DNA of 64,000 nt from Candidatus Cacconaster stercorequi. GTDB taxonomy: Bacteria > Bacillota > Clostridia > Oscillospirales > Oscillospiraceae. The position numbers and the translations under genes are program-made. Below are positions 1,128 to 64,000 of the stretch, one piece after another; positions within the stretch are counted from its first letter, which is position 1; each line of letters begins with the position of its first letter. Below the pieces are notes generated by a model, which worked only from the letters and a program-made list of their open reading frames with translations, made no database searches and had not been told where the DNA came from. Where the stretch lies: positions 1 to 64,000 of the forward strand of contig JAGHUH010000023.1 in NCBI GenBank assembly GCA_018064925.1, read 5' to 3'.

Positions 1128-2294
1128 ATGACTGAAAATATGATGCCCGAACTGACACTGGAACCCGCCGCCACCGCTGCCGCCATGCCGGAGCTGACGC
1201 TGGAGCCCACCGCTCCCGCTGTGCCCCAGGTGGAGGAGAAGCCCGCCGTCGAGCCGGTGGAAATGGATGACAAGCTGCTGACCGAGGAAGAAAAGAAGGC
1301 CGTGGAGGAGTTTTCTCACAAGATCGACATCCGCGATACCAACATGATTTTGCAGTACGGCGCCGCCGCACAGAAGAATGTGGCAGGCTTTTCTGAGAAC
1401 GCCCTGAGCAATGTACGAAACAAGGATCTGGGCGAAATCGGTCAGGATCTGAGTAAGCTGGTGGTGGAGCTGAAGGGCTTTGGCGCCGGTGAGGAAAAGA
1501 AGGGTCTGGCAGGTCTGTTCCACAAGAGCGGCAACCGTCTGGAGACCATGAAGGCGCAGTACAGCAAGGTGGAGGCCAATGTCAACAAGATCGCCGAAAA
1601 TCTGGAGAACCACCAGATCACGCTGCTGAAGGATGTGGCCATGTTCGACCAGATGTACGAGCTGAACCTGAAGTATTACAAGGAACTGACCATGTACATT
1701 CTGGCCGGCAAGAAGCGCATTGCCGAGGTGCGTGCCGGTGAGGTGGAGGAGTTGCGCCAGAAGGCTGAAAAGACCGGCCTGGCCGAGGATGCGCAGGCCT
1801 ACAACGATCTGGTCAATCTGTGCAACCGCTTTGAAAAGAAGATCCACGATCTGGAGCTGACGCGCATGGTGTCTGTGCAGATGGGTCCCCAGACCCGCCT
1901 GCTGCAGAACAACGACACGCTGATGATCGAGAAGATCCAGTCCTCTCTGGTGAACACCATCCCCCTGTGGAAGAGTCAGATGGTGCTGGCACTGGGTTTG
2001 GAGCACAGCAAGCAGGCTACCGCTGCCCAGAATGCCGTTACTGAGATGACCAACCAGCTTCTCAAGGAGAACGCCGACAAGCTGAAGATGGGTACCATCG
2101 CTACCGCCAAGGAGGCCGAGCGCTCCATCGTGGATATTGAGACGCTGCAGCACACCAATCAGCAGCTGATCTCCTCTCTGGACGAGGTGGCCCGCATCCA
2201 GCAGGAGGGCGCCCAGAAGCGCAAGGAAGCCGAGGCCGAACTGGGCCGCATCGAGGGCGAGTTGAAGCAGAAGCTGCTGGAGCTGCGCGGCTGA
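1128..2294 (+). CDS. TelA family protein (toxic anion resistance)
   Basis: The protein has 388 residues from the ATG at 1128, which has AAAGGA 9 bases upstream; an ATG at 1101 has no such site. It has a Pro/Ala/Glu-rich N-terminus of about 45 residues and then an almost entirely helical, charged body, as in the TelA/KlaA family linked to tellurite and cell-envelope stress resistance. No membrane segment is seen, so it is probably cytoplasmic. It sits between the XpaC-like gene and a TPM-domain gene, apparently as one transcript. The family's molecular activity is unknown. Confidence 0.88.
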   Translation: MTENMMPELTLEPAATAAAMPELTLEPTAPAVPQVEEKPAVEPVEMDDKLLTEEEKKAVEEFSHKIDIRDTNMILQYGAAAQKNVAGFSENALSNVRNKDLGEIGQDLSKLVVELKGFGAGEEKKGLAGLFHKSGNRLETMKAQYSKVEANVNKIAENLENHQITLLKDVAMFDQMYELNLKYYKELTMYILAGKKRIAEVRAGEVEELRQKAEKTGLAEDAQAYNDLVNLCNRFEKKIHDLELTRMVSVQMGPQTRLLQNNDTLMIEKIQSSLVNTIPLWKSQMVLALGLEHSKQATAAQNAVTEMTNQLLKENADKLKMGTIATAKEAERSIVDIETLQHTNQQLISSLDEVARIQQEGAQKRKEAEAELGRIEGELKQKLLELRG

Positions 2295-2328
2295 AAAACG
2301 AGAACATCTCCTTGAAAGGAGCAGCGAT

Positions 2329-3330
2329 ATGAAGTTTTACCAAAAACGCGGCTGTGCGCTGATCGTTCTGATTTTGGCGATTTTGTTTGCTGGATACTGG
2401 GGCATCAGCCACAAGCCGGCAGAAACCACCCCCACGCAGCACGCCGAGCTGTTGGATGTGAAGTATCAGCAGTGGATTTGCGACGATGCCAATGCGCTGT
2501 CCGGCAAGACAGAGAGCGTTGTGGTAGATTACAACGACACATGGGACAGCCGCTACTACGGTATCGTGGCGGTGGCGTCGGTGAAGTCCGTCTCCGGCTG
2601 GGAGATCGAGGACTATGCCGCGGCGCTGGGCAGCAAGTGGGGTCTGGGCGCCAATGATATGCTGTTGCTGTTGGTGACCAAAGACGATCCGGTGTGGTAT
2701 GTGGCCGTGGGCGATAATGTGAATAATACCATGACCGATGTGCAGCAGATGAAATTGAAGCAGGCCATCGACAAGCCGTTTTACAGCGGCAAATATGACG
2801 AGGCGGTCACTGCATTCTACCGTCAGGCGGATGTATTCTACGGCCAGACCAATCTGGGCGGCAGCAACGGAAGCTGGAGTGGTGACCAATCATACGAGGA
2901 TTACTATCCCCAAGCCCAGCAGAGCGCAGATTCCGGGATCCATCTGGGCGGCGTGATCGTGATGCTGATCGCTTTCTTTGTGGTGTGGATTATTCTGGAT
3001 CGCCTGCGCTATAACCGCTATCGTCGGCGGTACATGGGACCCACGGTGGTCACTCCTGTGGTGACATACTACCCCATTTTTTGGGGTCGGACATCCCGTC
3101 CGGCGCCCCCCCGTCCCCCGCAGAGTCCTGTGGGACAGAGTGGCGGCTATGCACCGACGCGTCCCCCGCGCCCCACTCAGAGCCGTCCCACGGCGCCCAA
3201 TAGGCCGGCACGGCGTCCCAGCGCGCCCAGCCGTCCCCGCGGATTCGGCGGAAGCCGCGGCGGCATCAACCGCAGCGGTGGTTCCCGCGGCGGTTTCGGT
3301 GGTGGCGGCTTTGGCGGCAGACATCGGTAA
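2329..3330 (+). CDS. TPM-domain membrane protein with a Gly/Arg/Pro-rich tail
   Basis: The protein has 333 residues, with AAAGGAG before the ATG. A membrane anchor (about residues 9-25) is followed by a TPM domain (about 45-170), a second membrane segment (about 205-225), and a low-complexity basic tail of about 95 residues built from Pro-Arg runs and then Gly-Arg-Gly-Gly-Phe repeats. TPM domains are extracytoplasmic alpha/beta modules of uncertain function; some bind metal or act in photosystem repair. The tail resembles the Gly-rich ends of the YgcG family. It is the last gene of the operon, followed by a terminator. Confidence 0.85.
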   Translation: MKFYQKRGCALIVLILAILFAGYWGISHKPAETTPTQHAELLDVKYQQWICDDANALSGKTESVVVDYNDTWDSRYYGIVAVASVKSVSGWEIEDYAAALGSKWGLGANDMLLLLVTKDDPVWYVAVGDNVNNTMTDVQQMKLKQAIDKPFYSGKYDEAVTAFYRQADVFYGQTNLGGSNGSWSGDQSYEDYYPQAQQSADSGIHLGGVIVMLIAFFVVWIILDRLRYNRYRRRYMGPTVVTPVVTYYPIFWGRTSRPAPPRPPQSPVGQSGGYAPTRPPRPTQSRPTAPNRPARRPSAPSRPRGFGGSRGGINRSGGSRGGFGGGGFGGRHR

Positions 3331-3335
3331 AAGCC

Positions 3336-3375
3336 AAAAGCGGCAGACAGGAGCTTTCCGTCTGCCGCTTTTTTT
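3336..3375 (+). terminator. Intrinsic terminator after the TPM gene
   Basis: The stem AAAGCGGCAGAC/GTCTGCCGCTTT (3338-3349 and 3360-3371) is followed by a run of T. Confidence 0.88.
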
Positions 3376-3390
3376 CAAGGAGGCAATGCA

Positions 3391-4524
3391 ATGAGCAAAT
3401 ACATCATCGTACCGGATTCATTTAAGGGTAGTCTGTCCGCTCGGCAGATCTGCCGCATTGTGGAGGAGGCGGCGCGAGCAGTGGAGCCGGATTGCCGCGT
3501 CTGCGCCATTCCGGTGGCCGACGGCGGCGAGGGGACGGTGGAGACCTTTCTGACCGCGGTGGGCGGCAAGCTGGTCACCGTGCCCTGCCATGGGCCTTAT
3601 GGCGAGGAACATACCGGTTTTTACGGCCTGCTGCCGGACGGCACGGCAGTGGTGGAGATGGCTGCCGCGGCAGGATTGCCTCTGGTGGGTGGCCACCGCG
3701 ACCCGGAAAAGACCACCACCTACGGCGTGGGTGAGATCATGGCGCACGCCGCCGTACACGGGGCGAAGCGTCTGGTGCTGGGTCTGGGAGGCAGTGCCAC
3801 CAATGATGGCGGCTGCGGTGCTGCCGCGGCGCTGGGCGTACGGTTTCTGACGGAGCAGGGTGTGTCCTTTATCCCCACCGGTGGGACATTACACAGGGTG
3901 AAGCATATTGAAACCAGGGGCCTGCTGCCGGAGTTGAAGGACATTCCCGTGGTGGCCATGTGCGATATTGATAACCCGCTTTGCGGGGCAAACGGCGCCG
4001 CCGCGGTATTTTCGCCGCAGAAAGGCGCAGATGAGAGCATGGTGCGCCGATTGGACGAGGGACTCTACAATCTGGCATGGGTGATCCAAAAGGATCTTGG
4101 GATGGATGTGCTGCATTTGCCCGGCGGCGGCGCGGCCGGTGGCATGGGCGCCGGTAGTGTGGCTTTTTTCGGTGCCGCGCTGCAAATGGGCATCGAGGCC
4201 GTGCTGGATGTGTCGGATTTTGATCGGATGGCCGTTGGCGCGGATCTGATAATTACCGGCGAGGGGCAATTGGATGGCCAGAGTCTGCGAGGCAAGGTGG
4301 TTGTCGGCGTGGCGCGTCGCGCCAGAAAGCTGGGTGTGCCGGTGGCGGCGTTGGTGGGTGGCTGCCGGGGAGAATGGCAGCAGGTGTATGATCAGGGTGT
4401 GACGGGTGTGTTTCCTATCTGCCCGCGTCCCATGACCCTCGCCAAGGCCATGGAGGACAGCGAAGAAAACCTGCGTGCCGCGGCGGAAAATATGTTCCGC
4501 TTTGCCGCTGCCATGAAAAAATAA
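3391..4524 (+). CDS. Glycerate kinase (GarK/GlxK family)
   Basis: The protein has 377 residues, the usual length. It phosphorylates D-glycerate, giving 2-phosphoglycerate in most members of this family, and feeds lower glycolysis. The N-terminal VPDSFKGSLSA, the VADGGEGTVETF loop (about residue 43), GLGGSATNDGG and the late GEGQLDGQS segment are family hallmarks. AAGGAGG precedes the ATG. It is flanked by its own terminators, so it is probably a single-gene unit. The product isomer cannot be told from sequence alone. Confidence 0.93.
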   Translation: MSKYIIVPDSFKGSLSARQICRIVEEAARAVEPDCRVCAIPVADGGEGTVETFLTAVGGKLVTVPCHGPYGEEHTGFYGLLPDGTAVVEMAAAAGLPLVGGHRDPEKTTTYGVGEIMAHAAVHGAKRLVLGLGGSATNDGGCGAAAALGVRFLTEQGVSFIPTGGTLHRVKHIETRGLLPELKDIPVVAMCDIDNPLCGANGAAAVFSPQKGADESMVRRLDEGLYNLAWVIQKDLGMDVLHLPGGGAAGGMGAGSVAFFGAALQMGIEAVLDVSDFDRMAVGADLIITGEGQLDGQSLRGKVVVGVARRARKLGVPVAALVGGCRGEWQQVYDQGVTGVFPICPRPMTLAKAMEDSEENLRAAAENMFRFAAAMKK

Positions 4525-61574: not shown

Positions 61575-61712
61575 TTACAGACCCTTGTATTTCCGGCGTG
61601 TGGCCATGCCGCCGCGAATATGCCGCTGGGCCTTGTTTTCCTCCAGAATTTCCTTGACCTGCAGGTAGAGCGCCCGGTTATACTGCGGCAGACGCTCGCT
61701 AAGATCCTTATG
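61575..61712 (-). pseudogene. spoIIID: spoIIID, 3' part only (interrupted by an integrated element)
   Basis: Reading leftward from 61712, the frame encodes HKDLSERLPQYNRAL, then a helical stretch with KEILEENK, and ends RHIRGGMATRRKYKGL before a TAA (61577-61575). This matches residues 38-83 of B. subtilis SpoIIID (HKDLTERLP, KEILDYHKS, RHLRGGEATKLKYK). The first 37 residues, with most of the helix-turn-helix, are missing: upstream the frame runs into recombinase sequence. The 5' part should lie beyond the element, outside the window. If the element can excise precisely the gene would be restored; otherwise it is broken. Confidence 0.9.
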
Positions 61713-63243
61713 TTTCGTCGTGATGAATTAGAACGGTCTCGTCTAAACCCAAATCACTAAACAGGCGCAAGTAAATATCCACATTTCTGTCCTTGTCTAC
61801 TTCAATTTTCTGAATGATACGCTTTAATTGGGCGTTGGTCATTTGGCGCACATCGGCAATATCCTCAATTTCCTTGAATGTACGCTCAAGGACACCTTCT
61901 AACTGTTCGCCTTTTGTCAGATGATAGGATACAATCTTTAGCTCATTTTCCAGTCGCTCAATTTCCTTTCGCATACCACCGATTTTATCATTCAATTCTT
62001 CACGGCTGATAAGGTCATCGGCATACATATCCATGTATTTCTGCCTTGTTTTTTGCAGTTTGGAAAGTTGCGCGTTCAATTCCTTTTCATAATTCAGATT
62101 TTCGTCCTTTGCTTTGTAAACTCGCTGAAATTCATTCACAACATAGCGTATTGCATTCTTCTTTGCTTTCAGCAGTTCGGCAAAGTATTTCTGCAAAACA
62201 TCAATTAGTTCATCTTCATCTATGGTTACAGCGTTAGGGCAACTATCTGCTCCGCGCCCATTATGCCCTGAACATACCCAGCGGACATAGGTGTTTTTAT
62301 AGGTGCGAACATTTCGACGAAATGACCAACCACATTCTTTGCATTTGATAAGTGTAGAAAACAGATACTTATTGCTCTGGCGTTCTTTGTCCACCTTAAA
62401 GGTCTTGCCGCGGGCTTTCATAATCTGCTGCGCCTGTTCAAAAACTTCTGGGTCAATAATCCGCAAGTCCGGGCGTTCTACAACAATCCAGTCTGTTTCG
62501 TCCTTGTCGATTCTCTGCCCGGTCAGGAAGTCGGACACTTCCTGTTTGCCGTTGATTATTTTTCCCGTATAAAGTTCGTTGGTAAGAATGCGGCAAACCC
62601 CGTTCTGGCTCCACTGGCAGTTACGCTTTGTCCGCAGACCACGCTCATTTAAGAAGATTGAAATCTTCGCAGCACCATATCCGTCCTTGATATACCACTG
62701 GTAAATTTGCCGGACAACAGCCGCTTCTTCTTCATTGATGGTAAGGTTAAAATAATCTCCAATCGACTTATTATATCCGTAAACGATATTCGGGACACGA
62801 CCTTTTTCCGCGTTCATTTTTTTACCGAACTTCACACGCTTTGAGGTGTTGGCGCTTTCTTCCTGTGCCAAAGCTCCGAAGATTGTCAATACAAATTCGC
62901 TGTTGCCCATGCTGGTCATATTGGCGGTCAAAAACTGTGTTTCAATCCCCAACGCTTTAAGCTTGCGGACATTCTGCAATAGATCCACTGTGTTGCGTGC
63001 AAAGCGTGAGATATCTTTCACCACGACCATGTCAAAGAGACCGTGCTCAGCATCGGCCATCATGCGCAGAAACTCTTTTCGATTTTTAATTTTCGTACCA
63101 GAAATACCCTCGTCTGCATACAACCGAACAAGGTTGTTTCCAGTGCGCTGGGTGTATTCTGAAAAAAATTCCTTCTGTGCTTCCAAACTGTTGAGCTGAT
63201 CGGCCTTGTCCGTAGAAACACGGCAATATGCGGCTATATTCAT
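61708..63243 (-). CDS. Large serine recombinase
   Basis: The protein has 511 residues. The resolvase catalytic domain (AAYCRVSTD with Ser10; VVVKDISRFARN) is followed by the recombinase domain (about 155-260), a zinc ribbon (CKECGWSFRR … CSGHNGRGADSC), a long coiled coil (about 370-450) and a C-terminal tail. This is the architecture of SpoIVCA-type and phage integrases. AGAGG precedes the ATG. Its stop TAA (61710-61708) overlaps the SpoIIID His-Lys codons, so it sits at the very end of the element, next to the attachment site. No terminator follows; its transcript would read into the spoIIID 3' end. Confidence 0.95.
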   Translation of the reverse strand: MNIAAYCRVSTDKADQLNSLEAQKEFFSEYTQRTGNNLVRLYADEGISGTKIKNRKEFLRMMADAEHGLFDMVVVKDISRFARNTVDLLQNVRKLKALGIETQFLTANMTSMGNSEFVLTIFGALAQEESANTSKRVKFGKKMNAEKGRVPNIVYGYNKSIGDYFNLTINEEEAAVVRQIYQWYIKDGYGAAKISIFLNERGLRTKRNCQWSQNGVCRILTNELYTGKIINGKQEVSDFLTGQRIDKDETDWIVVERPDLRIIDPEVFEQAQQIMKARGKTFKVDKERQSNKYLFSTLIKCKECGWSFRRNVRTYKNTYVRWVCSGHNGRGADSCPNAVTIDEDELIDVLQKYFAELLKAKKNAIRYVVNEFQRVYKAKDENLNYEKELNAQLSKLQKTRQKYMDMYADDLISREELNDKIGGMRKEIERLENELKIVSYHLTKGEQLEGVLERTFKEIEDIADVRQMTNAQLKRIIQKIEVDKDRNVDIYLRLFSDLGLDETVLIHHDET

Positions 63244-63287
63244 AGTGTAACCTCTCTGTTATTTTCAAATCGTTCTGTTACCTCTTC

Positions 63288-63316
63288 ATTTTAGCATATG
63301 ACGATTTGGTTTGCAA
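63288..63316 (-). promoter_or_regulatory. Promoter of the serine recombinase gene
   Basis: TTGCAA (63316-63311) and TAAAAT (63293-63288) are 17 bases apart, with TGC just before the -10. It is a housekeeping-type promoter; no sigma-E or sigma-K motif is obvious. Confidence 0.65.
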
Positions 63317-63317
63317 T

Positions 63318-63350
63318 AAAAAAAGGACACACTGCCTACGCAGAGTGCCC
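63318..63350 (-). terminator. Terminator between the 59-codon gene and the recombinase
   Basis: GGGCACTCTGC pairs with GCAGTGTGTCC (63350-63340 and 63335-63325) with one mismatch and one G-U, followed by TTTTTTT. The TAG stop of the small gene lies in the loop. Confidence 0.72.
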
Positions 63351-63515
63351 ATCTTCGGATTTTTTTTCAACATTACGAACTGCATTTGCATCTTTTTGTA
63401 TTGCTGACTCTACCTTCTTCGCGTTTGCTTCCAGCAAGACTTTTAATATGTAATCGGCGGATGCAGCCGCGGAATTAGGATTATGAAATCGGTAATTCAA
63501 AGGTGTTTTTTTCAT
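63336..63515 (-). CDS. Small conserved-type element protein, 59 residues
   Basis: The frame MKKTPLNYRFHNPNSAAASA… ends …VEKKSEDGHSA. AAAGGAGG lies 13 bases before the ATG, a long gap, because a 14-codon overlapping frame begins nearer to it. The N-terminal YRFHNPN motif and a helix with ADYILKVLLEANAKKVESAI are, from memory, common in small proteins beside clostridial site-specific recombinases. Position suggests an accessory or directionality role, but no function is established. Confidence 0.72.
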   Translation of the reverse strand: MKKTPLNYRFHNPNSAAASADYILKVLLEANAKKVESAIQKDANAVRNVEKKSEDGHSA

Positions 63516-63607
63516 AGCGGTGCATGCGCCTCCTTTCGTTAAGGGTCTTGCTCATTCTATGAAGGCTGAGAGCAGAATAGCACTGTAATAATTCCAAAAC
63601 ATGGTTT

Positions 63608-63647: not shown

Positions 63648-64000
63648 TTATAATCTTGGAGCAATATTCTCTCGCATAAAGGAATCAAAGCTGGGATAAT
63701 TTATCCGATAATCATTTGCGTTCTTCCGAAGCCAATAGCGACAATCATCATTTGGTTCGTATTCTTTCAGATAGTCGTATATGAAGTCCAAAACCTTTTT
63801 AACGGCTTCTTCACCCCAGATGCTTCTTATCTTATAGAGCGTTGATACTGCTCCACTTCCAAAAAAGAGGTGAGTTAGACTCTTTGCAATATCATAGTTT
63901 CGTGAGGAAGGAGCCTTCAGAATAAATGTCTGATTACTGATATAACTCATCAGCAATTTGATGTATTCCGTATCATCCTCAATCACGCCTTTATCAATTA
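63648..64000 (-). CDS. Partial element gene of unknown function (C-terminal part)
   Basis: The frame is open to the window edge, so the N-terminus is missing; a GTG at 63986 is possible as a start but has no clear site. At least 112 residues are visible, helical and acidic, with ends such as FFGSGAVSTLYKIRSIWG and YPSFDSFMRENIAPRL. I recognise no family. AT-rich codon use matches the element, not the chromosome. Confidence 0.6.
   Translation of the reverse strand, partial: IDKGVIEDDTEYIKLLMSYISNQTFILKAPSSRNYDIAKSLTHLFFGSGAVSTLYKIRSIWGEEAVKKVLDFIYDYLKEYEPNDDCRYWLRKNANDYRINYPSFDSFMRENIAPRL

Follow-up and report, generated by a model that had tools for sequence, protein, structure and literature searches.

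An element with its own large serine recombinase splits spoIIID in Candidatus Cacconaster stercorequi and is probably excised during spore formation

The window, the whole 64,000-nucleotide stretch of Candidatus Cacconaster stercorequi DNA that was analyzed, is the start of the 137-kb contig C3 in an assembly (genome G000) of 1.83 Mb in 46 contigs, which is 88% complete. Near the right end of the window the sporulation gene spoIIID is interrupted by an element that extends beyond position 64000, and the features of the locus are as follows.

61575..61712, minus strand: spoIIID 3' half, 45 codons and stop, starting at the His of STVH|KDL (PF12116 positions 35-80, E 2.6e-18)
61711..61712, minus strand: proposed crossover dinucleotide CA, the first two bases of the His codon, at attL (shared ACATA; ends of G271 and G174)
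61711..61737, minus strand: attL arm on the element side, ACCGTTCTAATTCATCACGACGAAACA, mirrored by TAGAACGGT at the far end (sequence; similar arms in related loci)
61708..63243, minus strand: large serine recombinase, 511 aa when integrated (Resolvase, Recombinase and Zn_ribbon_recom domains; PHROG integrase, E 1.4e-118)
63267..63279, minus strand: AACAGAACGATTT, 5' of the recombinase and resembling the att half-site TAGAACGGT (similar stretch in several aligned upstream regions)
63288..63316, minus strand: possible recombinase promoter of sigma-A type, TTGCAA-N17-TAAAAT, with TG before the -10 (sequence and alignment of upstream regions)
63336..63515, minus strand: candidate recombination directionality factor (RDF), a 59-aa RFHNPN/RFHDPN protein (profile match in 68 of the best 80 loci)
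63554..63582, minus strand: sigma-E-type site, TGCTATT-N14-CATAGAAT, with CATA 46 nt before the ATG of the candidate RDF (12/15 consensus positions)
C3:63648-64802 (window part 63648..64000), minus strand: Rep_trans gene, mobility or replication module (PF02486, E 2.6e-15)
C3:70821-70928, minus strand: spoIIID 5' half, or N-half (PF12116 positions 3-38, E 5.0e-11)
about C3:70825-70826, beyond the window: attR, at the other end of the element

The two spoIIID halves are on the same contig and strand, with 9,114 bases (9.1 kb) between them. The minus-strand translation of 61575-61760 reads HKDLSERLPQYNRALYLQVKEILEENKAQRHIRGGMATRRKYKGL*, with element sequence ahead of HKDLSERLPQYNRALYLQVKEILEENKAQRHIRGGMATRRKYKGL; a previous sequence-only reading had recognized 45 C-terminal codons of SpoIIID with a break at 61712, which is borne out by the stop codon at 61575-61577 and the PF12116 match. 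The N-terminal codons that it proposed in advance to look for on the minus strand beyond 64000 are present at C3:70821-70928, and the rejoined halves form an in-frame, open SpoIIID (KSTVH|KDLSERL), with the precise junction anticipated after excision present by sequence (STVH|KDLSERL). A second intact spoIIID, which would have spoken against the proposal, was looked for, and a PF12116 profile search of the 88%-complete assembly at E <= 0.001 returns no further SpoIIID copy besides the two halves. In the nine other genomes of the genus SpoIIID gives one match apiece, with an E-value like that of a full-length protein (coverage is known for G395 alone), and in a synteny comparison with the intact congener G395 the sole match is spoIIID itself, so the empty-site comparison is confined to the gene. 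A genome in 46 contigs and 88% complete could in principle have acquired this arrangement by an assembly or binning artefact joining a mobile element to spoIIID, but both junctions lie within one 137-kb contig, both recur in Flavonifractor sp. An82 (G182) and, around an element of 5.3 kb, in Schaedlerella arabinosiphila DSM 106076 (L039), the C-half junction is present in Pseudoflavonifractor phocaeensis An569 and Sporofaciens musculi, and both halves are in the one-contig genome G534; we consider the chance of an artefact to be practically negligible.

The recombinase combines PF00239, PF07508 and PF13408 in one protein, each above cut-off, which identifies it as a large serine recombinase. 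Its reading frame crosses the att arm of its own element, and the TAA stop of the integrated form is completed by spoIIID DNA; read from the joined element ends, the predicted circle form is 525 aa. In other elements whose frame crosses the core the recombinase has 523-632 aa; the overlap with the att site is absent in G254, G038, G044 and G058. The core ACATA is common to both element ends, and because the ends in G271 and G174 diverge at the base immediately after CA, strand exchange is placed at CA, with the element ends forming a dyad around the core (ACCGTTCTAATT...AAATAGAACGGT). Uninterrupted, this dyad forms an attP within a 525-aa recombinase frame in four of 18 IMG/VR loci (three with identical sequence), in agreement with the form predicted beforehand for the circle; no SpoIIID match was found in the 18 loci, and the recombinases of the 14 loci without the described attP are at most 46% identical. 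The AACAGAACGATTT stretch upstream of the recombinase suggests possible autoregulation. Scores of at least 10/12 for a sigma-A promoter are reached by 27/74 recombinase upstream regions, 2/68 candidate RDF upstream regions and 14/150 other genes. A sigma-E promoter ahead of the recombinase, as for B. subtilis spoIVCA, was sought, and no enrichment was found.

We also note the IMG/VR locus L112, in which the sequence behind the recombinase resembles an intact dyad attP. The recombinases of L112 to L114 are 44-46% identical and located outside spoIIID, and the genes abutting those of L113 and L114 (L113:4152-4625, minus strand; L114:11518-11916) match no family above cut-off.

Split spoIIID genes recur in the host family. 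A PF12116 profile search of 400 family genomes gave a match in 326, and 36 with an unusually weak best E-value were chosen by eye and searched again. Both halves are present in cis, on one contig and strand, in 16 of the 400 genomes including G000, spaced 2.5 to 52.5 kb apart; all 16 elements cut spoIIID at the same His codon and the halves rejoin to an open SpoIIID, the C-half of G038 being cut by a contig end. With 15 other genomes sharing the break at this codon in cis, the split is not due to chance. The halves are on separate contigs in eight more genomes (G035, G050, G095, G108, G143, G198, G353 and G389), of which G095 has a break slightly further on that looks like a different insertion, and a single half is found in seven (G076, G165, G276, G285, G318, G377 and G384). 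G259 and G350 are excluded from the split counts, and G111, G136 and G288, suspected from their scores, carry spoIIID at contig ends with the junction unbroken and are not counted. In two of the cis-split genomes a second SpoIIID N-half is seen (G015, C23:82140-82256; G058, C159:4030-4146).

A second sample of 391 genomes from the class (280 with a PF12116 match; 15 chosen by eye and searched again) contains cis splits in G446, G459, G534 and G696, with an element of 64.7 kb in G534. The halves are on different contigs in G457, G688, G706 and G754, one half alone is found in G490, G551, G568 and G632, and G522 is unsplit. The recombinases at the C-half are 34-35% identical to that of the window in G446 and G459 and 77-90% in G696, G276 and G353, and the codon is thus used by two or more lineages of recombinase; none was found in 5.2 kb at the C-half of G534. 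The patchy distribution argues that the split-spoIIID class is mobile, and the class is widespread, beyond the single case described from the window.

G645 and G714 have a good C-half and an N-half match in which three TAA codons are in frame, and their spoIIID appears to be decayed or differently arranged. Such stops would fit a dead insertion, with spoIIID permanently broken and sporulation lost or being lost in the lineage, but the halves are open and precise in 16 cis elements, the recombinase frames are intact, and all cis carriers but G337 (15 of 16) have a full-length spoIVA. G000 itself has a full-length spoIVA and two full-length sporulation-type sigma genes; no match reached the cut-off of the sigK model in 25 genomes and the B. 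subtilis control, and either of the two may be sigK. We consider a dead insertion very unlikely.

Between the spoIIID halves of G000 are the recombinase, the 59-aa gene, Rep_trans, an FtsK/SpoIIIE gene, a BspA-type repeat protein, a Cro-type regulator and an SprT-like gene. Three parts of a mobilizable element, a Rep_trans relaxase, an FtsK-like coupling protein and an integrase, are represented, and the 9.1-kb element is probably mobilizable. FtsK/SpoIIIE beside Rep_trans resembles what we take to be the arrangement of Tn916-type and related mobilizable elements, but the serine recombinase with its fixed spoIIID target is unlike the Tn916 type. Among the cis elements the recombinase is found in 15 of 16 and any other family in at most five, counting ORFs of at least 60 aa, a limit below which the candidate RDF and other small genes fall, and with the middle of the G368 element outside the sequence covered. 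Pairwise identity of the recombinases is 39-94%, and in G254 the gene is at the N-half end instead.

GTDB contigs were scanned with ten recombinases, giving at least 575 relatives, of which the best 80 were kept and the more distant ones are outside the sample; the 80 overlap the 16 cis genomes by at least three (G182, G054 and G150). These best 80 fall in Oscillospiraceae, Lachnospiraceae and other Clostridia, and in 75 of them a SpoIIID C-half follows the recombinase on its strand, at a distance of up to about 200 nt from the end of the frame in 73 and of about 2.4 kb in two. L040, L044, L091, L101 and L106 are those without a downstream C-half. In L040 (6439-8004) an 84%-identical recombinase is accompanied by an att core joined to non-spoIIID DNA, either a secondary site or a chimera. 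All recombinase matches in the phage and plasmid collections are below 60% identity, the best being MT838016.1 (L146; 56%), where the recombinase runs into a SpoIIID C-half (2113-3760). This 6.4-kb record, named "Bacteriophage sp." and from human faeces, is probably bacterial DNA with an integrated element and not a free phage; a candidate RDF was not found in it.

The candidate RDF is a protein of about 55-65 aa with the pattern MKKRKLNYRFHDPN...EANxxKVExAI, coded upstream of the recombinase, either adjoining it or some kb off, and has no match in Pfam, NCBIfam or PHROGs. A pattern search found it in 12/15 elements, and a profile built from 11 pattern-found copies adds G015, G150 and G033 (on the opposite strand in G033), bringing the total to 14/16 cis elements as seed or match; the G254 copy was recognized by eye and missed by the profile, and the G368 copy has an E-value of only 0.057. 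It is present in 68 of the best 80 loci, on the recombinase strand in 65, and among the 12 loci without it are eight in which the recombinase is at most 1 kb from the locus start, together with L051, L066, L071 and L100.

The site ahead of the candidate RDF was scored against what we take to be the B. subtilis sigma-E consensus. Its score in the window is reached by 7.5% of shuffles and alone is not significant, and by the same score in 12 elements G337, G182 and G058 alone stand out, and G174, G054, G254 and G038 do not. Taken as a set, the 68 RDF upstream regions average 11.22/15 against this consensus versus 9.99 for shuffles, which preserve base composition only, the loci being related to each other. 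The strict form TATT-N14-CATA is found in 28/68 RDF upstream regions (shuffle 0.2), 0/74 recombinase upstream regions and 2/824 other genes (a comparison set of genes of at least 200 aa), and a broader two-box form in 44/68 (shuffle 1.7), 3/74 and 32/824, respectively, leaving 24/68 RDF upstream regions without the two-box motif. The upstream regions of the spoIIID N-halves, intended as a positive control, have the strict form in 1/13 and the broader form in 5/13. The broader motif is kept in 34/55 RDF upstream regions after dereplication; among the 44, a 14-base spacer is present in 38 and CATA lies 34-55 nt before the start in 40. CATA at -60 to -30 is found in 63/68 RDF upstream regions (shuffle 8.1) and 6/74 recombinase upstream regions, and in a consensus-free scan it is the commonest 4-mer over all 30-nt windows, above the ribosome-binding-site GGAG. 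These patterns suggest that sigma-E uses the promoter ahead of the candidate RDF.

The small gene and the sigma-E-type motif of the set favour control in the mother cell over a gene that is simply broken. A plain mobile element could use conserved spoIIID sequence as a landing site and excise at random or under stress, unlinked to sporulation, its carriers sporulating poorly or via element-free cells; the varied cargo, the patchy distribution and the vegetative type of the recombinase upstream regions are in keeping with this. Contigs that stop at the core (L044, G108 and G318) would fit mixed integrated and excised states, and are equally explained by strain mixture. We think the plain element unlikely, since a sigma-E-type motif enriched before the small gene, and not before the recombinase, has no evident reason absent a mother-cell role.

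The spoIIID element has relatives in kind among known systems. Like skin of C. difficile (in sigK; CD1231 and CD1234) and B. subtilis (SpoIVCA), it splits a mother-cell regulator gene, codes for a large serine recombinase and permits precise rejoining; unlike skin, its target is spoIIID, earlier than sigK, its recombinase gene overlaps the att site, and it carries Rep_trans and FtsK genes in place of a prophage-like set. The insertion is not in sigK and the element is hence not skin proper, and it has three features of the sporulation-controlled intervening elements (skin, gin, SP-beta/spsM, yin), namely a sporulation gene in two halves, rejoining across a short core to an open frame, and its own site-specific recombinase. 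In C. difficile skin, the recombinase CD1231 is reported as constitutive from a sigma-A promoter, and the RDF CD1234 as mother-cell-specific under sigma-E, confining excision to that cell, and also requiring SpoIIID (PMC5025042). The pairing of a constitutive recombinase with a small sigma-E-driven RDF is proposed from sequence for the spoIIID element, but with SpoIIID absent before excision, sigma-E alone should suffice for the first RDF molecules, unlike for CD1234.

The gin element in gerE of Bacillus cereus ATCC10987 (GirC, GirX) is reported to be rejoined during sporulation and, like the spoIIID element, is a non-phage element in the gene of a small mother-cell transcription factor, but it occupies another gene and site, is 28.6 kb with three recombinases, and is reported there for one strain (PMC5595907). 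SP-beta in spsM (SprA, SprB) and the spoVFB, spoVR and yabG elements are likewise serine-recombinase elements that split a sporulation gene, but those genes are late or structural and spoIIID is a regulator preceding sigK (PMC6957869, PMC10747680). Split sporulation genes described in these three papers include sigK, spsM, spoVFB, spoVR, gerE and yabG, and kamA is another site used by a phage (PMC6957869, PMC10747680, PMC5595907). The sequence-only reading treated spoIIID as a target not known to have been described, and it is not named as a split gene among the matches listed for open-licence PubMed Central papers, in titles, abstract beginnings and passages. The main text of a serine-recombinase survey contains "sporulation" once, in its reference list (PMC10083194), and phages carrying their own spoIIID, as described in a C. 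pasteurianum paper, are distinct from a split spoIIID. For phiC31, excision by the integrase without a partner is reported (PMC11784100), which counts against the excision model proposed below. The layout is that of C. difficile skin, the target being new and a step earlier than sigK, with excision and the RDF role as proposals.

SpoIIID acts before sigK in the mother cell, and serine integrases mostly need a partner to excise. We propose that the large serine recombinase integrated its 9.1-kb element into the His codon in the helix-turn-helix of spoIIID, and that in growing cells, where the recombinase would be present from its sigma-A-type promoter, the element stays put for want of such a partner. 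Activation of sigma-E in the mother cell would lead to production of the small RFHDPN protein, which would act as RDF and together with the recombinase would excise the element, joining the halves in frame at CA|T; SpoIIID would then be produced and the late mother-cell programme, sigK included, would proceed. The forespore would retain the element, excision being presumably limited to the mother cell. The element thus probably cuts itself out during spore formation, and we regard RDF-driven, sigma-E-timed excision that restores SpoIIID in the mother cell as likely. The skin-like, sporulation-controlled rearrangement suggested by the sequence-only reading gains support from what the sequence shows, namely the recurring split, both halves with their precise junction, the att sites, the recombinase, the conserved candidate RDF gene and the sigma-E-type promoter motif of the set, from which we infer the excision itself.

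We think it rather likely that Oscillospiraceae, Lachnospiraceae and other Clostridia harbor a dedicated spoIIID-homing family in which the RDF is wired to sigma-E, the recombinase tail being trimmed by 14 residues here by the att overlap. Each carrier would have to excise the element in the mother cell to finish its spore, which would carry the element to the next host, and carriers with sigK split too would have two serial DNA locks. Only a few genes of spore formers are known to undergo developmental DNA excision; if the proposal is true, such excision also acts on spoIIID, above sigK, in at least 16/400 sampled family genomes, and the spread of a mobile element is tied to spore dispersal. 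From the analysis come many related serine recombinases, their predicted att sites and a candidate RDF, as well as a natural series for asking how an element couples excision to a cell-type-specific sigma factor.

Other sporulation genes are also found in pieces in some of these genomes. The spoIVA of G337 is broken into two pieces on a single contig, separated by about 252 kb (C20:236830-237279 and C20:489488-490534; L151, L152); a 644-aa serine-recombinase-like frame adjoins the C-part, and phage-like frames lie close to the N-part. The spoIIID-split genomes G150, G254, G029 and G368 each have a sigK-like gene in two pieces as well, giving two split regulators per genome. The split sigK-like loci of G150 (C4:133835-141469; L148) and G254 (C28:3375-39502; L149, L150) both have a frame of 571-575 aa at the C-piece, which by eye resembles a skin-type serine recombinase.
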